A stretch of 64,000 bases of DNA, taken from NCBI RefSeq assembly GCF_001856665.1, contig NZ_CP017781.1, positions 2,079,501-2,143,500 of the forward strand, read 5' to 3'. The stretch is from Rhodobacter xanthinilyticus. GTDB taxonomy: Bacteria > Pseudomonadota > Alphaproteobacteria > Rhodobacterales > Rhodobacteraceae. Numbering within the stretch: position 1 is the stretch's first letter; each line of letters begins with the position of its first letter. Below are positions 27,395-43,576 of this stretch, piece by piece. A program made the translations under genes and the position numbers. Below the pieces are notes generated by a model. The model was not told the DNA's origin. It saw only the letters and a program-made list of their open reading frames with translations, and did no database searches.

Positions 27395-28453
27395 ATGCGC
27401 AGCCTCGCCATTCTCACCGTCAAGAACGAAGCCGCCTTTCTGCTGGAATGGTTGGCCCACCACCGCGCCGTGGGCTTCACGGATTTCCTCGTCTTTTCAA
27501 ACGATTGCGATGATGGCACCGATGCGATGCTCGAGCGGCTCGCGGCGCTTGGGTGGCTCAGCCATGTGCCCAACCCCGGCCCCTGGCCCGAGGGCCCGCA
27601 ATGGGCCGCGCTGAAGGCCGCCGACCGCCACCCGCTGACCCGCGCCGCCGACTGGATCCTGTTTCTCGACGTCGATGAATTCGTCAACATCCACGCCGGC
27701 GACGGCACCCTCGACGCGCTGCGCGCCGCCCTGCCCGAGGCCAGCGCGATCCCGCTCACCTGGCGGTTTTTCGGCAATTGCGGCGTGGTCGATTACCGCG
27801 ACACCCCGGTGACCGAGCAATTCACCCGCGCCGCCCCCTCCTCGATGCTCTGGCCCTGGCGCGCCTCGCTCTTCAAGACGCTGTTTCGCAACGACGGCAC
27901 CTATGGCAAGCTCGGCGTCCACCGCCCCCGCCAGCCCGACCCCGCCCGGATCGGCGCGGCGCGCTGGTTTGACGGCTCGGGCACGCCCCTGCCCCCCGAT
28001 TACGCCCGCTCGCGGATTTTCACCCCCCCGGGCCTCGATTGCCACCGCCTCGTGCAGCTCAACCATTACGCGCTCGGCGCGATGCAGAGCTATGTCCTCA
28101 AGGCCGCGCGCGGGCGCGCCAACCGCGAGGCGAGCCCCTTCGACATCTCCTATTGGGTCGAGCGCAATTTCTGCGCCGAGGAGGACCGCACGATCGCGCG
28201 GATGGCGGCGGCCTCGGGCGCGATTCTGGCCGAGCTGCGCGCCGATCCGGTGCTTGGGGCGCTGCACGAGCGGGCGGTGGCCTGGCGGCGGGCGCGAATC
28301 GACGCGCTGATGCTCGAGGAGGACTATCGCAGCCTCTTCGGGCGGCTGATGCTGACCCCGCCGTCGCGGCCGCTGCCGGCGCCCTTGGCGCGGCGGATGC
28401 TCGAGCTCGGGATGCGGGCGCGGGCGGCAGGTGACGCAGGGGAAACAATCTGA
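27395..28453 (+). CDS. Glycosyltransferase family 2-like (PF13704 type)
   Basis: 352-residue cytoplasmic or membrane-associated transferase. The N-terminus LAILTVKNEAAFLLEWLAHH and the NDCDDGTDAMLERL segment are typical of the Glyco_tranf_2_4 group. The nucleotide-sugar/metal DxD is Asp92-Val-Asp94 (FLDVDEF). It is clearly homologous to the N-terminal half of the fusion protein at 38483-40864 (shared NDC-DGTD, GDGTLD, W-FG--GVV, LG-HRP, VQLNHYA blocks). Donor, acceptor and product are unknown. The following gene is a paralogue of another member of the 34-42 kb island. Confidence 0.85.
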   Translation: MRSLAILTVKNEAAFLLEWLAHHRAVGFTDFLVFSNDCDDGTDAMLERLAALGWLSHVPNPGPWPEGPQWAALKAADRHPLTRAADWILFLDVDEFVNIHAGDGTLDALRAALPEASAIPLTWRFFGNCGVVDYRDTPVTEQFTRAAPSSMLWPWRASLFKTLFRNDGTYGKLGVHRPRQPDPARIGAARWFDGSGTPLPPDYARSRIFTPPGLDCHRLVQLNHYALGAMQSYVLKAARGRANREASPFDISYWVERNFCAEEDRTIARMAAASGAILAELRADPVLGALHERAVAWRRARIDALMLEEDYRSLFGRLMLTPPSRPLPAPLARRMLELGMRARAAGDAGETI

Positions 28454-28591: not shown

Positions 28592-29563
28592 ATGACGACC
28601 ATTGAGGACAGGCATAGACCCATGGAAGCGCTCAGCGATGCCGATTGGCAGGGCCGGATCGAGGAGATCGGCGAGGAGGCCGGTTATTTCGAACCCCTCG
28701 GCGCGAGCCATTGCGCGCTGTTTTCAGATGCGGGGCCGGTGCTGCTCGTCACCTTCGAGACGCGCGCCCAGATCCGGCGCCGCAACGAGGACCATCTGCC
28801 GAGCGGCTTCACGCTCGCCCAGGCCGAGGGCCATTCGAGCCTGACGCTGATCGCCGACCGCGAGACCTGGTTTCGCGACCCGGCGGTCTATGCCTATTTC
28901 GACCGGCTGGTCGATGAGGCCTTCTTCGCCGATTTCGACCGGGTGGTGTTTTACGGCTCGGGCCCCTGCGGCTATGCGGCCGCCGCCTTCTCCGTCGCCG
29001 CCCCCGGCGCGATCGTGATCGCCGCCCAGCCGCAAGCCACGCTCGAGGCCCGCCTCGCCGGCTGGGATGATCGCTTCCGCTTCATGCGCCGCACCTCCTT
29101 CACCGATCGCTACGGCTTCGCCCCCGACATGATCGACGGCGCCGAGGCCGCCTATATCCTCTACGACCCCCATGTCGCGCTCGATGCGATGCATGCCGCG
29201 CTCTACGCGCGCCCCAATGTCATGCTCCTGCCCTGCCCCCATGCCGGGCGCGCGGTGGAACGGATGTTCGTCGAAATGGGGATCCTCGAGGAGCTGCTGC
29301 GCAGCGCCTGCGCGGGCAGCTTCGATGCGGCGCGGTTCTGGCGCCTCTACCGCGCGCGCCGCGATACGCCGCGCTACCTGCGCACGCTGCTCGCCCGCCT
29401 CGCCGAGGCCGACCGCCCCTATCTCGAGGCGCTGGCCTGCCGCACCATGGTCACCCGGATCAACGGCCCGCGCTTCCGCGCCCGGCTGAGCCAGCTCGAG
29501 GAAGAACTCGAAGCCCGCGAGATCAGCTTGCCGCCGATGCGCGCCGAGCCCCGCGAGGGCTGA
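28592..29563 (+). CDS. Alpha/beta-hydrolase-like protein lacking the nucleophile
   Basis: 323 residues, ATG at 28592 after GGGGAGG. It is homologous to the N-terminal domain (about residues 70-345) of the protein at 35287-37524. Shared blocks: LVTFE/WVTFD, R-x-x-W-F/Y-R, Y/V-G-x-x-x-x-G-Y-A-A, YDP and a late His. In the paralogue the elbow is GASMG with Ser162; here the aligned sequence is GSGPCG, so Gly124 replaces the nucleophilic serine. Asp192 and His217 remain. Function is unknown; it may bind rather than hydrolyse its ligand, or use Cys126. Confidence 0.7.
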   Translation: MTTIEDRHRPMEALSDADWQGRIEEIGEEAGYFEPLGASHCALFSDAGPVLLVTFETRAQIRRRNEDHLPSGFTLAQAEGHSSLTLIADRETWFRDPAVYAYFDRLVDEAFFADFDRVVFYGSGPCGYAAAAFSVAAPGAIVIAAQPQATLEARLAGWDDRFRFMRRTSFTDRYGFAPDMIDGAEAAYILYDPHVALDAMHAALYARPNVMLLPCPHAGRAVERMFVEMGILEELLRSACAGSFDAARFWRLYRARRDTPRYLRTLLARLAEADRPYLEALACRTMVTRINGPRFRARLSQLEEELEAREISLPPMRAEPREG

Positions 29564-34376: not shown

Positions 34377-35282
34377 CTATTCCAGCGCCTCGCCGGCCGC
34401 GGCCGGGGCGGCGTTCTTGATCTGGCCGATCCGGCGCACGCCCGCCCATTTCTCGAGATAATTCTTCGCCGGGCGCACAAGGCCGACCTCGCGCAGCACC
34501 TCGAGATTGCGGTAATGCACCGTGAAAATCTCGCGATCCGCCGGCAAGGGCTCGCCGCGCGAGCGCCCGCCGAGGATCCAGTGCTGCTCATCGGGCAGGA
34601 TGTTCCACGCCAGCCCCGCCCGGCGGATCGCGAGCGGCATCGACATCTGGTCGAGATAGGGGCGCTTTTTCGGGATCTCGGGCGCGGCGTCGATCTCCTG
34701 GGCGACCTGCATCCAGACCTCGGGGAAGCTCAGCCCCTCGGCGGAGCGATGATCCTCGGGGAAGCAAAACAGCCCCGAGGAGAAATAGGGCACCCGCTCC
34801 TCGCCGCGCTTTTGCTTCATCAGCTTGAAGCGCTCCTCGGGGATCTCCATCCCGCACACCCGGTAGATATCGTCCCAGATCGTCTGCGGCGCCCAGTTCA
34901 TCGAGGCCGCCTTCGAGAGCGACACATGCCCGGGCCGCGCCAGCGCCTCGACCACGTTCGGCCGGATGCACAGCACATCGGAATCCATGAAGCACGAAAA
35001 CGGCGTGTCGCGCTTTTCGAGCGTGGCGAGGAGCTTGTTGCCATGCGGATAGGGCGGGTCGAACCGCCCCTCGACCTCGAAGGGGCGCAGATCGCAGCCG
35101 AGCCGGTCGAGAACCTTGCGCACATCCCCCGAGACCTCGCCCATCCGCGGCGCCGGACAATAGCCGACGAGCGCGAGCTCGCCCTCGGCGAATTGCTCGC
35201 GCAGCGAGGCGGCGAGATAACAGGCCATGATCTGATAGCTCGGCGGCTCGACAATGAAATAGACGGTCATCCGCGGCGCCAT
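34377..35282 (-). CDS. DxD-containing glycosyltransferase-like protein
   Basis: 301 residues, ATG at 35282 with GAGGAG upstream. The fold signature is a nucleotide-sugar transferase type: opening YFIVEPPSYQIMACYLAASL, the metal-binding Asp100-Ser-Asp102 (CFMDSDVLCIRP) and a late acceptor-side segment PYFSSGLFCFPEDH. Resembles DUF6492/GT-A-like proteins, although the exact family is uncertain. It follows the hydrolase-GT61 gene by four bases and so ends a three-gene minus-strand unit with FkbM. Confidence 0.7.
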   Translation of the reverse strand: MAPRMTVYFIVEPPSYQIMACYLAASLREQFAEGELALVGYCPAPRMGEVSGDVRKVLDRLGCDLRPFEVEGRFDPPYPHGNKLLATLEKRDTPFSCFMDSDVLCIRPNVVEALARPGHVSLSKAASMNWAPQTIWDDIYRVCGMEIPEERFKLMKQKRGEERVPYFSSGLFCFPEDHRSAEGLSFPEVWMQVAQEIDAAPEIPKKRPYLDQMSMPLAIRRAGLAWNILPDEQHWILGGRSRGEPLPADREIFTVHYRNLEVLREVGLVRPAKNYLEKWAGVRRIGQIKNAAPAAAGEALE

Positions 35283-35286
35283 CTCG

Positions 35287-37524
35287 TTACTCCTCTTCCT
35301 CGTCCTCAGGGTGGCGCTCCTGCGCGCCCAGCGCCCGGAACGGCTCGCCCCGGCGCTCCTCATAACTCTCCAGAAGCGCCCGGATCTCGGCCTCGCTGGG
35401 CAGCTCGGGGCGGAAATCGGCCGGCAGATAGCCGCGCGCGATCAGCTGCGCGAAGAGCGCACCGAAATCGAGCTCGCCGATCGAGCGGAAATCGACCCGC
35501 GCCGCATCGCCCGCCACCCAATCGGCCTTGATCACATCGATCACATCCGGGGTAATGCCGCAGAAGTTGCGAAATTGCAGGTCGTAATCGGCCGCATTGG
35601 CCTTCGAGCGGCGCAAGATCATGCCCACGCGCCCGCCCGCGGGCATCACATAGGCCGCCAGATGCAGCGCCGACCCATCGAGCGCCACGATCTGCCGCGC
35701 GGCCTTGTAATGGGCGATCTGCTCGGTCAGCGGCGCCTTCTCGGGGTAGAAGATCTCATAGCCCGCCCGCGCGAGGTTCTCCTCGATCACCGTCTCGCCC
35801 AGGACCCCGCCGCGTTGCGCCGGCAGCCGCGCGCGCGAGACATAGAGCTTCTCGCCCCCCGCCGCGGGCGCCGCCGCGCCGAGCCGGCCCTGCATGAAGG
35901 CGCGGTAGGCGGGCGAGCCGGCATAGCGCTCGTTCCAGCCAAAGCCGAGCTCGGGCACGAACAGCCGCTCGACGCGCTGGATATGGGCAAAGCTGCGCAC
36001 CGGCAGGTCGATGCCGAGCGTCTGGAAGAACCCCGCCTGCCCCTCGATCGCGCGCCGCACCGGCTCGATCGCGCCGCGATAGGGCAGATAGATCAGCCCG
36101 TCGACGCCGCCCTCGATATGGTCGAGCGCCCAGAGCCGGGCCGAGGATTCCACCAGGAAATGGCCGAAATGGCCGCGGAAATGGCCGCAGAAGAGGTGCC
36201 GCCCGGCCAGCTCCTCGATCTCGTCCTCGGGGTGGATGGTCGGCGCGGGCGTGGTCTTGCGCGCCCGGATCCAGGCTTTCGAGAGCTCGACCCAGTCGCC
36301 CTTGGCGTCGATCACCCCGGAGGCCAGCGGCGTGTCATGTTCGCGCTCGGGCACCACAAGCGCCGCGCCGAGCGACAGGATCTCGCCGGTGAACACCCCG
36401 GCCGCACCGCCGGGCACGAGGATCCGCTCATCGCCCTCCGCGCGCGCCGCGCTCATCCGCCCGCGCGCCTCCTTCTCGGCGCGCCGCGCCTTGCGCTGCT
36501 TGCGCAAGAGCCGCCGCGCGGCCTTCATCTCCGGGTCGATCTCGAGGCTGAGCTCGGCCACCCGCGCCGCCAGCGCATCATGGCCGCGCGCATCGGCCGA
36601 TTTGATCAACCCGCGCCGCCAGCCATGCAGATCGCGCCGCCCGCGCATCGCGCGCGCCCAGGCCTGCGCATCGACCCGCCCCGCCGCCGCCGCCTCGATC
36701 AGATCTTGCAAGACGCCGAGCTCCTTGACCATCCGGATCGCCCGATGGCCAAAGAGCGGCGCGATCAGCCGCGTCACCCGCGGCCCCGCGATCCGCGCGG
36801 CATGCAGCCGGTCCTCATGCTCGAGCGGGTCATAGACCAGCGTCACCTCCTGATCGGTGATCGCCGCGGCCGCGTCGCGATAGGGCAGCTCCTCGCTCCA
36901 ATCCCATTTGCGCTGCGCATAGCGGTAGCGCTTGTCGAAGGGCACGATCTTGCGCGCGAGCGTCGTCTGCGGCGAAAACGCCAAGACCCGCGCCCCCGGC
37001 ACCAGCCCCGCATAGGCCAGCGCCGCATAGCCGCCCATCGAGGCGCCGACGAAGAGAATGTTGCGAAACCGCGCGAAGAACCCCGCCTCGCGCAGCGCGG
37101 TGATCACCGCCGCCGTCTCGGCATTGCGATACCAATCCTTGCGCGAGGCCATGATCCCGAGGATCGAGGCCCCGGCCTTGGCCGCGCGGCCCTGCAACCA
37201 GGGCTGCGGCGGGTCATATTCGCCGATCGAATTGAGGTTGTCGAAGGTCACCCAGAGCGTGTCGGAGCGGTGCAGGAACCACGCATCAACGAGCCCCGCG
37301 CGCAGCACAAACGCCGCGCGCCCCGCGGCCGCGGCGGCGTCGGGCGCCTCTTCGGGGGTCTCAAAGAGCGCCGGATAGGGCCGGCTCAGCCCCGGCTCCT
37401 GATCATCCGCGCCATCGCCGTCCTCGGCCAGATCCTCGGGCGCGCGGGTCTCCTCCGGCGCCTCACCCTGCCCCTGCGCGGCCCGCGTCTCGTCCAGCAC
37501 CCCGGCCGCTTCTTCCGGCTTCAT
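35287..37524 (-). CDS. Fusion: alpha/beta-hydrolase-like domain plus GT61 (DUF563) glycosyltransferase
   Basis: 745 residues. After an acidic, disordered N-terminus (1-65), residues about 70-345 form a hydrolase-like domain with nucleophile elbow GASMG (Ser162), Asp232 (LVYDP) and His260 (LFGHR). An arginine-rich linker follows, then about 360-740 is a GT61/DUF563 domain (LFCGHFRGHFGHFLVES near the start; YEIFYPEKAPLTEQIAHY and VALDGSALHLAAYVMPAG near the end, the family hallmark). The N-terminal domain is duplicated at 28592-29563. It may couple removal of an acyl group or sulfate ester with glycosyl transfer; this is speculation. The start at 37524 has GAGGAG and overlaps the FkbM stop region by 12 bases... 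downstream of the fkbM-like gene. Confidence 0.75.
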   Translation of the reverse strand: MKPEEAAGVLDETRAAQGQGEAPEETRAPEDLAEDGDGADDQEPGLSRPYPALFETPEEAPDAAAAAGRAAFVLRAGLVDAWFLHRSDTLWVTFDNLNSIGEYDPPQPWLQGRAAKAGASILGIMASRKDWYRNAETAAVITALREAGFFARFRNILFVGASMGGYAALAYAGLVPGARVLAFSPQTTLARKIVPFDKRYRYAQRKWDWSEELPYRDAAAAITDQEVTLVYDPLEHEDRLHAARIAGPRVTRLIAPLFGHRAIRMVKELGVLQDLIEAAAAGRVDAQAWARAMRGRRDLHGWRRGLIKSADARGHDALAARVAELSLEIDPEMKAARRLLRKQRKARRAEKEARGRMSAARAEGDERILVPGGAAGVFTGEILSLGAALVVPEREHDTPLASGVIDAKGDWVELSKAWIRARKTTPAPTIHPEDEIEELAGRHLFCGHFRGHFGHFLVESSARLWALDHIEGGVDGLIYLPYRGAIEPVRRAIEGQAGFFQTLGIDLPVRSFAHIQRVERLFVPELGFGWNERYAGSPAYRAFMQGRLGAAAPAAGGEKLYVSRARLPAQRGGVLGETVIEENLARAGYEIFYPEKAPLTEQIAHYKAARQIVALDGSALHLAAYVMPAGGRVGMILRRSKANAADYDLQFRNFCGITPDVIDVIKADWVAGDAARVDFRSIGELDFGALFAQLIARGYLPADFRPELPSEAEIRALLESYEERRGEPFRALGAQERHPEDEEEE

Positions 37525-37535
37525 CGCCGCTCTCC

Positions 37536-38282
37536 TCAACCCTTGCGATAGATATGCACACCCGGCAGCGAGTTTTCCTCGTCCTGCTCAAAGCCCTTGT
37601 CGCGCAGGATATGGCGGATCTCGCGCATCCCCTCGCGGCCATAGATCTTGCGATGCACCTCGAAGACCAGCACCGAAACCCCGCTCAGATCGGCATCGCG
37701 CAGGAACGGCAGCTCCCCCCCCTCGATATCCATCATGATCGCATCATGGGGGAATTCGGCGCTCAGATCGGCATAGCGGATCACCGGCACCTCGACCGCG
37801 GTGCCCGCCGCCGCCTTCGAGGCATCGAGCCCCGAGCCGAGGAAATTGGTCGCGACATGGAAGCTGACATGCTCAGGCGCATCGGGGGCGGAAAACACCA
37901 CCGAATGGCGCAGCTCGATCCGGTCGGCGAGCCCGTTATGGGCGTAAAGCGCGCGCGCGGGGTCGATCATCTTCGGGTTGGCCTCGATCGAGAGCACCGC
38001 GGCGAGATCGAGGTTCTTGGCCAGAACCGCCCCCACCACGCCCGAGCCCGCGCCCATTTCGAGCAGCCGCGCCCCCCGCGGGATCGCCTTGAGGCCGCAG
38101 GCGACCTCCTTGCCCTCATAGCCGCCCTCGCGCAGCCGCCCGCGCATCCGCGGCGTGAAATGCGGCATGTTGAGCACCTCGACGCCGTGATAGACGGCAA
38201 GCAGCGCGCCATAGGGCACCTTCGCGCCCGGCGTTTCGAGATCCGGCGCCGCGAAGGCCGCTTGCGTGTCGATATTGCTCAT
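37536..38282 (-). CDS. FkbM family SAM-dependent methyltransferase
   Basis: 248 residues. SAM-binding motif I is RLLEMGAGSGVVGAVLAKN (about 70-88), followed by SIEANP (motif II) and the FkbM hallmark IRYADLSAEFPHDAIMMDIEGGELPFL, with MDIEG typical of the family. FkbM enzymes usually O-methylate sugars or polyketides; here a glycan hydroxyl is the likely acceptor, given neighbours. It heads the minus-strand unit and is divergent from the GT2-methyltransferase gene across 200 bases, suggesting shared control. Confidence 0.88.
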   Translation of the reverse strand: MSNIDTQAAFAAPDLETPGAKVPYGALLAVYHGVEVLNMPHFTPRMRGRLREGGYEGKEVACGLKAIPRGARLLEMGAGSGVVGAVLAKNLDLAAVLSIEANPKMIDPARALYAHNGLADRIELRHSVVFSAPDAPEHVSFHVATNFLGSGLDASKAAAGTAVEVPVIRYADLSAEFPHDAIMMDIEGGELPFLRDADLSGVSVLVFEVHRKIYGREGMREIRHILRDKGFEQDEENSLPGVHIYRKG

Positions 38283-38482
38283 CCTGCCTCACCTTTGTGT
38301 CTGGTCCGCCACGTCCGGGCATTGTTTCCAGAATAGAGACGGTTAACAGGGCTGTCACCCCAAAACCGGCCAATGCCGCACCGCCCCTTGCCGTTGCAGA
38401 GGATCCTGCGATAAATTGGCGAAAATATGGAAATAAACGGTTTACGAGCGGGCATTACCCCGGCGGGGCAGAAAGGCAAGCG

Positions 38483-40864
38483 ATGACCAAGGACGCATCG
38501 CCCGAGGGGCAAGAGGCCGAGGCGGCGACCCCGGGCGACGACGCGGCGCGCGCGGCGGGTGAGCGCCCCGCCAAGGGCAAGAGCCAGGGCCAGGGCCAGG
38601 GCAAAGCCAAGGGCCAGGGCGGCGCAAAGGCCGCCGCCAAGACCAAGGCCGCCGCCAAGGCGAAGGCCAAGCCCCCCCACGCCGAGGAGGAGGCCGAGGA
38701 GGAGGGCTTTGGCGAGGACGATCTCGACAGCCCCGATGACGACGAGGCGCGCGAGGCCGCCGCCGAAGCCGCAGGCCAGCCCTCGCCGCGCGCCCGCCTG
38801 AAAGCCGCCCGCGAAGAGGCCGAGCGCCACCCCGAGCGCCCGCGCGGCGCGGCGCCGCTGTGGGGCACCGTGCCCTTCTCGCTCAAGCGCCATGTCTCGC
38901 CCCACGGTCAGGTGACCGCCGTCTCGATGATGAAGGACGAAGGCCCCTATGTCATCGAATGGGTCGCCCATCACCTCGCGATCGGCTTCACCGACCTGAT
39001 CGTCTACACCAATGATTGCTCGGACGGCACCGATGACATGCTGATCCGCCTCGAGGAGCTCGGCCTCGCGCATCACCGGCGCAACGTGATCCCCGAAGGC
39101 ATCCGCCCGCAGCCCTCCGCGCTCAACTACGCTCAGGACGACCCGCTCGTCGGGCTCTCCGACTGGGTTCTGGTCTTCGATGCCGATGAATTCGTCTCGA
39201 TCAAATACGGCGATGGCACGCTCGATCAGCTGATCGCCGCCGCCAAGGAGCAAGGCGCCAATGGCATCGTGATCACCTGGCGGATCTTCGGCTCGGGCGG
39301 CGTCGTCGAATGGTCGCGCGCGCCGGTGAGCGAGCAATATCTGATGGCCGCACCGCCCGAATGGAACAAGGGCTGGGGGGTGAAGACGCTGTTCACCTTC
39401 GACCCGGAGTATTGGAAGCTCGGCATCCACCGCCCGAAGATGAAGACCCGCCACATCAAGACCGAGTTCCCCGATCAGGTGAAATGGCTCAACGGCTCGG
39501 GCCGCGAGATGGAGGATTACTTCAAGTTCCGCGGCTGGCGCTCGATCACGCGCACGGTCGGCTATGACTGGGTGCAGCTCAACCATTACGCGGTGAAATC
39601 GGTCGACAGCTACGCGATCCGCAAGCTGCGCGGCAATGTCAACAACAAGAAAGACAAGTATAATTCCGATTACTGGTCGCTGCAGGACCGCAACGAGGTG
39701 CGCGACGAGACGATGCTGCGCTACAAGGCGCGGCGCGATGCGATCATTGCCGAGCTGCTGACCGATCCGGTGCTCAACCGCCTCCACCATGCCGCGGTGG
39801 CGCGCGCCGAGGCGCGGCTGGCCGAGATCAAGGGCACCGAGGCCTATGTCAAGCTCGTCGAGGATCTCGCCGCCGCCTCGGCGGTGCCGCTGAGCCAGAT
39901 CGTCGCCAAACCCCCGCAGGCGCGCGACCGCGAGAAGATCGCCGCGCTGATGAGCGAGGTGGAGCGCCAGCGCGGGCTGAAAGCGCGCGAGGAGCGCAAG
40001 GCCGCGGGCCCGCGCGAGCCGATCGAGACGGTGCCTTTGGGCAATTTCGTCGCCGGGCCGGTGGTGACCGAGCCGCCCTATGCGGGCGACTGGGTCAAGA
40101 ACCACACGATGGAGCTGCCGCTCGACCACCGGATCTTCAACACCCCGATGCTCGGCGTGATCGGCAAGGGCAAGTTCGACCGCGGGCTCGCGCGGCGGAT
40201 GCCCTCGGTGCTGCCGCAGGGCGCCAGCGTGCTCGAGATCGGCGCGGGGGTGGGCTTCGTGATGGGCCATCTGGCGGCGGTGCGCCCCGATCTGACCCTC
40301 GCGATGGCCGAGGAGGACGAAGGGCTCGCCGCCGCGCTGCGGCTGATCGCGGCGCGAAACGGCCGCGATCTGACCCGCGCGCCCGAGCTGATCGCCGCGC
40401 CGCTCGGCGCCGACCCGGCCGGCGCGATCCTCGCCCAGATCGCCGCGCGCCGCCCGCAGGCGCTGCTGCTCGCCGATCCGCGGATCTCGCCCGAGGTCTT
40501 CGCCGCGATCCTCGCCCATGCGGGGCGGCCCGATTGCCCGATGCCGGGGCTGGTGTTCCTCCATGGCCGGCTCCTCGAGGCCCATCGCGCGCGGCTGGCG
40601 GAGTATGACGCGCTGATCGAGCCGCGCGGTTTTGTGCAGGGCTTTGGCTTCGACCCGAACCTGACGCGCGGCTATGGCTATGGCCTCGCCCCGCCCGACC
40701 CCGCCGCCCGCGAGGCGCGCAAGCGCAAGAAAGCGGCGCAGTCCGAGGGCGACGAGCCCCAGACCGACGGGGCCGAGGGCGCCGAACCCCGGACCGACGA
40801 GACCGCCCCGAACGCCGACCTTGCCCCGAACTCCGACCTTGCCCGAGGGGCAGGCGAGTTGTAA
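38483..40864 (+). CDS. Fusion: GT2-like glycosyltransferase plus FkbM-like methyltransferase
   Basis: 793 residues from the ATG at 38483 (GAAAGG upstream). Residues 1-110 are low complexity: a basic KGKSQGQGQGKAKGQGGAK region followed by an acidic run (EEEAEEEGFGEDD). About 145-470 is a GT2 domain paralogous to 27395-28453, with Asp233-Ala-Asp235 (VFDADEF). About 530-750 resembles a SAM methyltransferase (SVLEIGAGVGFVMGHLA), akin to the FkbM protein divergent from it, but the MDIEG motif is not evident, so catalysis is uncertain. A second charged tail ends the protein. Confidence 0.8.
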   Translation: MTKDASPEGQEAEAATPGDDAARAAGERPAKGKSQGQGQGKAKGQGGAKAAAKTKAAAKAKAKPPHAEEEAEEEGFGEDDLDSPDDDEAREAAAEAAGQPSPRARLKAAREEAERHPERPRGAAPLWGTVPFSLKRHVSPHGQVTAVSMMKDEGPYVIEWVAHHLAIGFTDLIVYTNDCSDGTDDMLIRLEELGLAHHRRNVIPEGIRPQPSALNYAQDDPLVGLSDWVLVFDADEFVSIKYGDGTLDQLIAAAKEQGANGIVITWRIFGSGGVVEWSRAPVSEQYLMAAPPEWNKGWGVKTLFTFDPEYWKLGIHRPKMKTRHIKTEFPDQVKWLNGSGREMEDYFKFRGWRSITRTVGYDWVQLNHYAVKSVDSYAIRKLRGNVNNKKDKYNSDYWSLQDRNEVRDETMLRYKARRDAIIAELLTDPVLNRLHHAAVARAEARLAEIKGTEAYVKLVEDLAAASAVPLSQIVAKPPQARDREKIAALMSEVERQRGLKAREERKAAGPREPIETVPLGNFVAGPVVTEPPYAGDWVKNHTMELPLDHRIFNTPMLGVIGKGKFDRGLARRMPSVLPQGASVLEIGAGVGFVMGHLAAVRPDLTLAMAEEDEGLAAALRLIAARNGRDLTRAPELIAAPLGADPAGAILAQIAARRPQALLLADPRISPEVFAAILAHAGRPDCPMPGLVFLHGRLLEAHRARLAEYDALIEPRGFVQGFGFDPNLTRGYGYGLAPPDPAAREARKRKKAAQSEGDEPQTDGAEGAEPRTDETAPNADLAPNSDLARGAGEL

Positions 40865-40923
40865 CCCTTGAGAAACCCCGCCGCCGCGCGCCGCGCGCGG
40901 CCAAAGCGAAAGGCCGCCTTCCC

Positions 40924-41739
40924 GTGTCGAACACCATCCGCCGCCCCGTCGCCTCGCTCTGGATCGGCGAGCGCCTGCATTATCTCAACCAGATGTGCCT
41001 GCTCTCCCATGTCCAGGCCGGCCACCCGACCACGCTTTACTGCACCGACACGGTGACCAATGTCCCCGAGGGCGTCGAGGTCCGCCCGGCGACCGAGATC
41101 ATGGATATCGACATGGCGATCGTCGAGCAGACCTCGGCCTCGTTCCTGTCGAACGTGTTCCGCTACAAGATGATCAAGAAGACCGATGCGGTCTGGATCG
41201 ACTGCGATGCGTTTTGCCACCGCCCCTTCCCCGACGAGATGCAGAACATCTACGCCGGCCACGGCTTCCGCGGCGCGCTCAACTGCGGGGTGGTCTATAT
41301 CCCGCGCGAGGGCGAGCTGATCGACGTGCTGCTCGATTACTACGAAAACCTCCCCGAGGCGCCGCCGTGGTTCAACAAGCAGCAACGCAAGCGGATCGCC
41401 AAGCAGGACACCTCGCTGCCGCAGGCGGTGCGGATCTACAACGCCGAGCGCACCGCCTTTGGCCCGCAGGCCTTCACCTATTTCGCCCAGCAGACCGGCG
41501 ATTACGAGAAGGCGCTCAGCCACGACGTGCTCTACCCGGTGCCGTTCCAGCTCAACGACATCTTCTACGACCCCTATGGCCGCGTCGAGGGCTGGTTCAC
41601 CGATGCGACCCTCTCGGTCCATCTCTACACCAACGGCACCAAGCCCTGGTGGCGCAAGAACGTGCCGCTCGAGAATTCCTATGCCGCGCGGATGGCCGCG
41701 CAGACCGGCGTCGACCCGGCCAAGGCGCTCGAGGAATAA
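40924..41739 (+). CDS. GT32-like glycosyltransferase
   Basis: 271 residues. The opening SLWIGERLHYLNQMCLLSHVQAGH resembles the glycosyltransferase sugar-binding (DXD) region of GT32 family proteins, and Asp93-Cys-Asp95 (WIDCDAFCHRP) is the DxD motif. LNCGVVYIPREGELID matches the acceptor-side region. It follows the GT2-methyltransferase gene by 59 bases and probably belongs to the same transcript. Substrate unknown. Confidence 0.8.
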   Translation: MSNTIRRPVASLWIGERLHYLNQMCLLSHVQAGHPTTLYCTDTVTNVPEGVEVRPATEIMDIDMAIVEQTSASFLSNVFRYKMIKKTDAVWIDCDAFCHRPFPDEMQNIYAGHGFRGALNCGVVYIPREGELIDVLLDYYENLPEAPPWFNKQQRKRIAKQDTSLPQAVRIYNAERTAFGPQAFTYFAQQTGDYEKALSHDVLYPVPFQLNDIFYDPYGRVEGWFTDATLSVHLYTNGTKPWWRKNVPLENSYAARMAAQTGVDPAKALEE

Positions 41740-41784
41740 TCCCGGTCGGGGGGCCCGCCGCCCCCCGCACCTGAAAGGACGACC

Positions 41785-42486
41785 ATGGGCATTTCCCTGA
41801 TCCCCGCGCTGTTTCTGGCCCGCAACGCCGCCCATGTCGCCCCCGAAGGCCGCGGGCTGGTGCTCGGGCGGCAAAAGCTGCACATGCGCGACCGCCGCGT
41901 CGTGCGCTTTCTCAAGATGATGGCCGCGATGGGCAAGCCGCTCACCGAGGAGCAGATCCGCCAGGAGGACGGCTTCACCGAGGCGCTCTTCACCGCGCTC
42001 GGCTACCCGGAGATGGAGGCGCTCGATTTCACCGATGCCGAGGGCGCGCAGCATGTGCACGACCTCAACCACCCCTGCCCCGACCATCTGCGCGGCCAGT
42101 TCGACGTGGTGCTCGATGGCGGCACGACCGAACATATCTTCCACATCGGCGCCGCGCTCGATACCTGCCATGAGCTGCTCAAACCCGGCGGCGTGGTGAT
42201 GTCCTATGTCGCGGCCGATGGCTGGTTCGGGCATGGCTTCTTCCAGACCGGGCCCGATGTGCCCTGGCGCTACTGGCACCATGCGCGCGGCTACGAGATG
42301 CTCGAGGTCTCGATCGCGCCGCGCGCCTTCCCCGGCCAGCTGATCGAGATCCCCGATCCGACCGGCCAGCCCCGCGGCGGCGAGCGCTTCCTCGAGGGCC
42401 CGCATATGATCGTCTATGCCGCGCGCAAACCGCTCGAGGCGCCGCCCTACGCACCGCCGATCCAGGGCCATTACGTCCACGACTGA
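41785..42486 (+). CDS. Putative class I SAM methyltransferase
   Basis: 233 residues. The core reads as a methyltransferase-type Rossmann segment: ALDFTDAEGAQHVHDLNHP, then FDVVLDGGTTEHIFHIGAALDTCHELLKPGGVVMSYVA split across about 112-147, where LKPGG is the post-motif III signature. The usual glycine-rich motif I is weak. An N-terminal FLARNAAHVAPEGRGLVLGRQ segment precedes it. It is the last plus-strand gene of the island, 40 bases before alr. Confidence 0.7.
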   Translation: MGISLIPALFLARNAAHVAPEGRGLVLGRQKLHMRDRRVVRFLKMMAAMGKPLTEEQIRQEDGFTEALFTALGYPEMEALDFTDAEGAQHVHDLNHPCPDHLRGQFDVVLDGGTTEHIFHIGAALDTCHELLKPGGVVMSYVAADGWFGHGFFQTGPDVPWRYWHHARGYEMLEVSIAPRAFPGQLIEIPDPTGQPRGGERFLEGPHMIVYAARKPLEAPPYAPPIQGHYVHD

Positions 42487-42526
42487 CGCCCTCCCCCCTC
42501 CCTCCCAGACCAAGACCGGATAGACC

Positions 42527-43576
42527 ATGGCCACCGCTTCGCTCCGCATCGACCTCGACGCAATCCTCGCCAACTGGCGCGCGCTGGACGCGCTCTCGGG
42601 CCCCGCCACCGAAACCGGCGCGGTGGTCAAGGCCAACAGCTACGGGCTCGGCGCGGCGCGCGTGGCGCGCGCGCTGGCCCGCGCGGGGGCGCGCAAGTTC
42701 TTCGTGGCCTGCACCGAGGAGGGCGTGGCGGTGCGTCAGGCGCTCGGCGAGGGGCCGCAGATCTTCATCTTCTCCGGCCATATGGCGGGCGATACCGAGA
42801 TGATCGCCGATCTCGGGCTGACGCCGATGCTCAACTCGCTCGATCAGGTCACCCGCCATTTCGAGGCCCTGCCCGGCGCGCCCTTCGGGATCCAGCTCGA
42901 TACCGGCATGAACCGGCTTGGCTTCGAGGCGCCCGAATGGCAGGCCGTCGCGCCGATCGTGCTGCCGCAGGGCCCCGAACTCGTGATGTCGCATCTGGCC
43001 TGCTCGGATGAGCCCGAACACCCGATGAACGCCGCCCAGCTCGCGCAATTCCACGCGATGACCGACGGGCTCGGCGTCAAACGCTCGCTCTCGGCGACGG
43101 GCGGGCTCCTGATGGGCCCGGCCTTCCACTTCGACGTGGTGCGCCCCGGCATCGGCCTTTACGGCGGGCTGCCCTTCGAGGCGGCCGAGCCCGTTGTGCG
43201 CCTGACCCTGCCGGTGGTGCAGGTCCGCGAGGTCGCGCCGGGCGAGACGGTGGGCTATTCCAACGCCTGGGAGGCCGAGGGGCCGAGCCGCATCGCCACC
43301 GTCTCGGCGGGCTATGCCGACGGCATCCACCGCACGCTCGGCGGGCGCGCGACGCTCTGGGCGGGCGATGTGCCCTGCCCGGTCGTCGGCCGGATCTCGA
43401 TGGATCTGATCACCGTCGATGTCACCCATCTGAGCGAGATCCCCGCCGGGCTCGACCTGCTCGGGCCCTGTCAGGGGGTCGATGATGTCGCCGATGTCGC
43501 GGGCACGATCGGCTATGAGATCCTGACCGGGCTCGGCCAGCGCTACGCGCGCCACTATGTCGAGGGCGCGCGGTGA
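42527..43576 (+). CDS. alr: Alanine racemase
   Basis: PLP enzyme making D-alanine for peptidoglycan. 349 residues. The PLP lysine is in [18 protein letters not shown] (Lys34 region); note Asn-Ser-Tyr where AxAYGHG is usual. The second-domain catalytic tyrosine lies in GYSNAW and the C-terminal [10 protein letters not shown] motif is typical. It returns to the housekeeping set after the glycan island. Its stop overlaps the mlaE GTG start by four bases. Confidence 0.94.

Follow-up and report, generated by a model that had tools for sequence, protein, structure and literature searches.

A putative glycan-modifying gene cassette inserted between dnaB and alr in Rhodobacter xanthinilyticus

We analysed a 64,000-nucleotide stretch of the Rhodobacter xanthinilyticus genome (contig NZ_CP017781.1, positions 2,079,501 to 2,143,500; hereafter the window), in which six genes of transferase or methyltransferase character, P1 to P6, occupy positions 34377-42486 between dnaB and alr (Table 1). 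We favour, with moderate confidence, the reading that they form a horizontally exchanged, cytosolic glycan-modifying cassette that would have inserted at this junction and whose members would take the roles proposed below. An earlier note on this DNA had described the six genes as an island. Open reading frames do lie at these places and on these strands, on either side of the central divergent region of 200 bases that it had pointed out, and the insertion is local, but the genes are not peculiar to this genome, as judged by the related sets found in many Rhodobacteraceae. What lies here is a locally inserted copy of a widespread cassette that has no name.

Table 1 Positions of P1 to P6 and of related or adjoining features in the window
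Feature	Position	Strand	Description
GT2up	27395-28453	+	Resident GT2_4 transferase; Pfam 79.8 bits
HYDup	28592-29563	+	Hydrolase-like; Ser and His of the putative P2 triad missing; no Pfam match
P1	34377-35282	-	DxD-type putative glycosyltransferase, 301 amino acids (aa), of a family without a name
P2	35287-37524	-	Alpha/beta-hydrolase domain (about aa 48-285) fused to GT61 domain (about aa 364-700)
P3	37536-38282	-	FkbM-family methyltransferase, by Pfam and NCBIfam above cut-off
Divergent intergenic region	38283-38482	none	200 bp; separates the two gene groups
P4	38483-40864	+	GT2_4 glycosyltransferase; C-terminal domain methyltransferase-like; about 130 aa of low complexity at the N terminus
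P5	40924-41739	+	Predicted GT-A-fold DxD glycosyltransferase, by AlphaFold2 (AF2) model and fold matches
P6	41785-42486	+	S-adenosylmethionine (SAM)-dependent methyltransferase-like protein; Pfam just under cut-off
P6-alr spacer	42487-42526	+	40 bp; without TTGAC; CAAGA remains 16 bases ahead of ATG
alr	42527-43576	+	Alanine racemase; directly behind P6

dnaB and alr were placed in 61 genomes, the window's own (G000) and 60 relatives; congeners carry the numbers G001 to G017 (n = 17) and fetched loci carry L numbers. The two genes lie 63-255 bp apart in 12 of the 17 congeners and 8,176 bp apart in the window's genome. Distances of 5.4 kb were found in G011 and G016 and of 38.7 kb in G005; in G003 the genes are on separate contigs, and G001 (81% complete) gave a match to neither. 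The G011 insert (L011) holds an ArsP permease, an ArsR-phosphatase fusion, GAPDH and an MFS-like gene that scores below cut-off, and the G016 insert (L022) has genes of sizes equal to these. Relatives of P1 to P6 stand at the junction in none of the 16 congeners with matches. By this comparison the six genes are an insertion relative to every congener with a comparable junction, which bears out the insertion into the dnaB-alr order that the earlier note had supposed. The gene order read from the open reading frames is pyrC - pyrE - dnaB - island - alr - two mla-like genes - radA - cvpA - purF, some of the names being provisional; homologous blocks were matched in relatives. Between the ends of P1 and dnaB lie 23 bp. 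P3, P2 and P1 follow one another on the minus strand, separated by 11 and 4 bp, and P4, P5 and P6 on the plus strand, separated by 59 and 45 bp, leaving 40 bp up to alr. All six frames are open. The divergent region contains a single promoter-like match, on the minus strand, which is a consensus match only. The base composition carries no clear island signal (G+C of 64-73% inside and 66-71% in the adjoining DNA), and no tRNA gene was found in the 64-kb window, a repeat search at the island ends not having been run.

Species genomes were scanned once with the P5 alignment, which confirmed 166 relatives, and the best 80, with 75-87% identity, were kept. Eleven loci in which less than 4 kb flanks P5 on one side, and three in which the simple gene finder did not call P5, were set aside, which left 66 testable loci; neighbours were counted up to about 10 kb from P5. 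Of the 66, 63 have a P4 relative (GT2 half at least 60%) in this range, and in 54 it is at most two genes away. This near neighbourhood is the defining trait of what we call the type B cassette, and in the window P4 and P5 are adjacent. Relatives of P1 (at least 45%) occur in 51 loci, of P6 (at least 40%) in 18 and of P3 (at least 45%) in four, the FkbM-type family as a whole being present in 37. GT61 was found in 24, the hydrolase in 19 and the hydrolase-GT61 fusion in 16, and fused relatives of P2 number 18 in the fetched loci. The window's arrangement, with P1, fused P2 and P3 on the strand opposite to that of P4 and P5 and the order kept, is seen again in L034 (UBA1943), L035 (a Rhodobacter metagenome-assembled genome) and L041 (Fuscibacter oryzae), P3 of L034 being split in two by the gene calls used. 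These three differ from the window in having no dnaB or alr near within the fetched stretch, and in the gene behind P5, which instead of P6 belongs to FkbM-type cluster 4 (L034, L041) or is an unassigned 245-aa gene (L035). The set adjoins the pyrC block in eight of the 66 loci, upstream of pyrC, with dnaB also seen in seven of the eight. Loci of Palleronia, Oceaniglobus, Oceaniovalibus and Profundibacterium (L054, L069, L077, L084, L085, L086, L094, L103) have P4, P5 and a P1 relative beside pyrC as members of the set; unlike the window's, these eight lie upstream of pyrC, GT2up- and HYDup-like genes surround the set in seven of them, and the hydrolase-GT61 fusion is labelled in none. A description of the cassette was not found in the open-licence literature searched.

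Horizontal transfer of the cassette is likely, because a tree of P4 and P5 from 74 loci rejects the G003 copy as sister to that of the window. The window copy falls into a 33-row group of Rhodobacter-like genera (support 100) and the G003 copy into a 10-row group with Roseicyclus (support 99), and a single clade of the two is rejected (p = 1.9e-7, approximately unbiased (AU) test). The G003 copy lies on a 63-kb contig that carries a ParA-like gene; we read the tree and this contig as pointing to at least two acquisitions of type B by the genus. In 13 of the 18 genomes compared by dnaB (L025-L067), identity to the window is 82-87% for P5, 75-85% for the GT2 half of P4 and 74-80% for dnaB.

Relatives also occur on plasmids. 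Among 72,556 plasmid records, two matched P1, 13 matched P5 (11 of them below 60% identity) and 158 matched P4 (all below 60%). Both P1 records, pP78_c and M344, are also the best for P4 (58%) and P5 (81% and 70%). Positions 59361-66045 of pP78_c, from Phaeobacter inhibens P78, resemble the window's set in P1 (53%), P5 (81%), P4 (58%), the hydrolase domain (46%) and an FkbM gene, and likewise contain no export gene; they are annotated as hypothetical, GT2, FkbM and glycosyltransferase. They differ in their plasmid location, in their order, in a hydrolase that is not fused to GT61 and in a rhamnosyltransferase-like gene (PF11316). A link to biofilm plasmids was considered and dropped, the rhamnose operon not being annotated in pP78_c 24000-72715. 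A phage origin is not shown, because no P5 relative was confirmed among IMG/VR viral contigs.

Congeners carry an alternative set, which we term type A and which probably does a similar job to type B. The window itself holds two related genes upstream of pyrC, GT2up and HYDup, that the earlier note had not linked to the island, and their counterparts in the six congeners read (G005, G007, G008, G009, G011 and G012) stand at 72-75% and 63-66%, respectively. The GT2up-HYDup pair is no more than about 15 kb away from dnaB in nine congeners (G006-G012, G014 and G016, by match positions) and on a contig other than that of dnaB in G002, G004, G005, G013 and G017. A diverged further GT2 with a long open frame accompanies the pair in 14 of the 17 congeners, at the pyrC place in seven (G008-G012, G014, G016) and otherwise elsewhere, for example on another contig in G006 and G007. 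In the loci read, the type A GT2 is fused to an N-terminal half without a Pfam match, and beside it are either a P5-like protein and a hydrolase or, in G009 and G012, a methyltransferase and a separate GT61. Type A (L007, L008, L010, L011, L015 and L018, and L020 of a sister genus) has GT2_4 proteins and the GT2up-HYDup pair in common with the window and, in several loci, P5-like and hydrolase proteins; the two types differ at about 26-45% identity, and in some type A loci the P5-like protein is fused to the hydrolase. The window's genome lacks type A except for two genes. Counted within the genus alone, since open-frame length is a poor guide outside it, type A is present in 14 of the 18 genomes, type B in two (G000 and G003), both in none and neither in two (G001 and G015), and an absence of overlap would arise by chance with a probability of 0.039, uncorrected for kinship. 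Six of the 14 type A calls were read as loci. The counts and the loci suggest that type B may have replaced the variable part of type A in the window's genome. In G007 (L009, L010) the type A variable part is on a different contig from the pair, so this part may be mobile too. HYDup belongs to the family of the P2 hydrolase, lacks the nucleophile serine and the histidine, and carries GSGPCG in place of GASMGG; as the congeners read have nonetheless retained counterparts, it may act as a partner without catalytic activity.

The insertion also bears on alr. TTGAC stands 34-38 bases ahead of the alr ATG in all 16 congeners with alr, followed by CAAGA at a spacing of 17 bases in 11 and of 15 bases in three; G005 and G017 lack CAAGA. 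Despite the other DNA at their junctions, G011, G016 and G005 retain TTGAC, as does G003, and seven of ten stretches from other genera contain it. Ahead of the window's alr TTGAC is missing; CTTGAC-N14-20-AAGAA gave no match in the 64 kb, and there is no sigma-70-like match in 42200-42560. Because TTGAC is missing and alr lies 40 bp behind P6, alr probably relies on transcription of P4-P5-P6 and would be transcribed with them. A single match to alr was found in the window's genome at an E-value limit of 1e-30.

The predicted families fit sugar transfer and methylation. P1 has only a sub-threshold Pfam match, to DUF6492 (12.3 bits, cut-off 22.9); of 31 P1-type sequences, five match GT2_4 and five DUF6492 in Pfam, and D102, D104, Y168 and D200 are invariant across their alignment (numbered as in P0001, which starts two residues early). 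P2 belongs to GT61 (Glyco_transf_61, PF04577; 43.2 bits, cut-off 27), with a weak Pfam esterase match in its N-terminal half. Its AF2 model, built from an alignment of 23 sequences, has a mean predicted local distance difference test score (pLDDT) of 82.5 and a predicted template-modelling score of 0.51 and comprises two domains, in keeping with the hydrolase-GT61 fusion of the earlier note. Residues 364-700 match the fold of POMGNT2 (Z 17.3, root-mean-square deviation (rmsd) 4.6, 292 aligned), and residues 48-282 adopt an alpha/beta hydrolase fold by structure match, resembling the meningococcal serogroup A capsule O-acetyltransferase (Z 14.6, rmsd 3.7, 199 aligned) and the Streptococcus agalactiae Gap123 chain (6oyc_B; Z 14.2, rmsd 3.4, 201 aligned), with which many esterases tie. 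The likeness to POMGNT2 and to the O-acetyltransferase is one of predicted folds of the two halves only, at about 9-12% identity. S161, D231 and H259 (numbered as in P0002, whose first methionine is missing) would form a catalytic triad, as we assign it from the alignment. P3 is an FkbM protein in both Pfam (39.4 bits, cut-off 22.7) and NCBIfam (47.1, cut-off 37.7), as the earlier note had it. The fusion of GT2 and methyltransferase that it saw in P4 is clear for the GT2_4 part (Glyco_tranf_2_4, PF13704; 73 bits, cut-off 27.5) and weak for the methyltransferase tail (15 bits, cut-off 23), and the methyltransferase P6 falls just short in Pfam (28.6 bits, cut-off 30). P5 had been called GT32-like, for which Pfam gives no support, no glycosyltransferase family matching and the GT32-type PF04488 and PF04572 not being listed up to E = 1; the predicted fold is nevertheless that of a DxD GT-A transferase. 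The model (mean pLDDT 91.3, alignment of 29 sequences) finds its nearest solved chains among DxD transferases (YeGT, Z 15.7, rmsd 2.7, 182 aligned), followed by several bacterial glucosylating toxin domains (Z of about 12-14) and glycogenin (about 12.5), and D93 and D95 are invariant in the 29 sequences; the structure matches indicate kinship of fold only.

None of the six genes is an export gene by Pfam, as the earlier note had claimed, and no protein has a clear membrane segment (highest 19-residue Kyte-Doolittle mean 1.68); nor are linked export or assembly genes present that would mark a self-contained capsule or exopolysaccharide locus, Wzx/Wzy profiles not having been run. The window's genome has six Poly_export matches elsewhere, and ABC transporter parts, a Wzc-like protein, a capsule-synthesis protein and YjbH were found on scanning around them. 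Of the 102 fetched loci, L038 alone has relatives of these Poly_export proteins, at an E-value limit of 1e-15 and half-length coverage. Decoration of an existing surface glycan or protein, as the earlier note proposed, is reasonable given these matches. Most likely, the encoded enzymes glycosylate, methylate and perhaps acylate, in the cytosol, a glycan or protein that leaves the cell by other machinery. P4, P5, P1 and the GT61 half of P2 would transfer sugars there from nucleotide donors, O-methylation of these sugars would fall to P3, P6 and the tail of P4, and the hydrolase half of P2 might add or remove acyl groups such as acetyl. We propose a resident exporter for the product because the cassette has none. 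Two stretches of about 11 kb on the 264-kb contig C2 of G000 (L121, L122) have near-equal runs of gene sizes and equal Poly_export scores, and one scanned gene of L121 is a Mu-type transposase.

Several observations weigh against parts of this reading. The co-occurrence counts lean to close relatives, because the 80 loci are the best of 166. A P5-only tree does not reject one clade with G003 (AU p = 0.227); in the other five of the 18 genomes P5 is 76-84% identical, the GT2 half 71-76% where called and dnaB 68-78%, and slow evolution of P5 could explain part of its high identity. The mutual exclusion of types A and B comes from 18 related genomes, with eight of the 14 type A calls resting on open-frame length and a p of only 0.039. 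Plain esterases match the hydrolase half of P2 no less well than an acyltransferase does. The element before alr is a conserved motif rather than a mapped start, and the window keeps CAAGA, which follows TTGAC in only 14 of 16 congeners.

Among other explanations, cytosolic protein O-glycosylation resembling that of serine-rich-repeat glycoprotein loci, with an Asp2-like hydrolase half acetylating the glycan before export, is conceivable though unlikely. The Gap123 match of this half, the match of the GT61 half to POMGNT2, a protein O-glycan enzyme, and a sulfatase-like family, RTX-bearing in many members, near 20 of the 66 loci speak for it, but the hydrolase half matches the capsule O-acetyltransferase and plain esterases equally, and none of 1,432 called genes in 80 loci had the length (at least 200 aa) and serine plus threonine content (at least 20%) of a serine-rich acceptor, SecA2/SecY2-like genes not having been searched. 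We give rather little weight to decoration of the lipopolysaccharide core or O-antigen as opposed to capsule or exopolysaccharide: late core or side-chain decoration suits soluble transferases lacking polymerase genes, but nothing observed separates lipopolysaccharide from capsule, the neighbours of the loci having been annotated in part and no search made for lipopolysaccharide genes. That unrelated sugar genes gathered as neutral or decaying passengers at a permissive junction, which also holds 5.4 kb in G011 (arsenic genes) and G016 (same-sized genes) and 38.7 kb in G005, is very doubtful, given the six open frames, the P4-P5 proximity in 54 of 66 loci, the 75-87% identity of P5 among the 80 kept loci and the joint presence of P1, P4 and P5 relatives on two plasmids.

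On the preferred reading of an exchanged glycan-modifying cassette, type B in place of the type A variable part would give a different surface structure. A wider picture, to which we attach only a small probability, is that exporter-free cytosolic glycosylation cassettes are exchanged among Rhodobacteraceae as surface-type switches, often at pyrC-dnaB-alr, and that here the cassette has captured alr transcription and so coupled the surface to the making of D-alanine. If so, the cassette would be hard to silence or lose, as it would be tied to the only alanine racemase gene found. The missing alr element offers a simple case for asking whether an insertion ties itself to a needed gene, and the alr coupling and the exchange of types A and B are the aspects most worth testing. 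A recurring cassette that moves between the chromosomes and plasmids of an abundant bacterial family might alter how cells are recognised by phages, gene transfer agents or algae. PMC10218006 names rcc01081-01086 together with lspL1 in the context of the gene-transfer-agent receptor capsule; we claim no link to the six genes.

The sulfatase-like protein (CAPCR motif, RTX repeats) forms a trio near P4-P5 with a 476-aa and a 248-aa family in 16 loci (L004, L024, L031, L044, L050, L055, L057, L060, L081, L082, L092, L093, L096, L097, L101, L104), and the members scanned had no Pfam match above cut-off. In the window's genome the best match to the RTX sulfatase is 32% over residues 11-442 (C1:1830630) and the others are RTX-repeat stretches; therefore the trio is probably absent there. 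Families that include DUF1800 and DUF1501 members were seen beside L027, L035, L036 and L038, and both were identified in L027.

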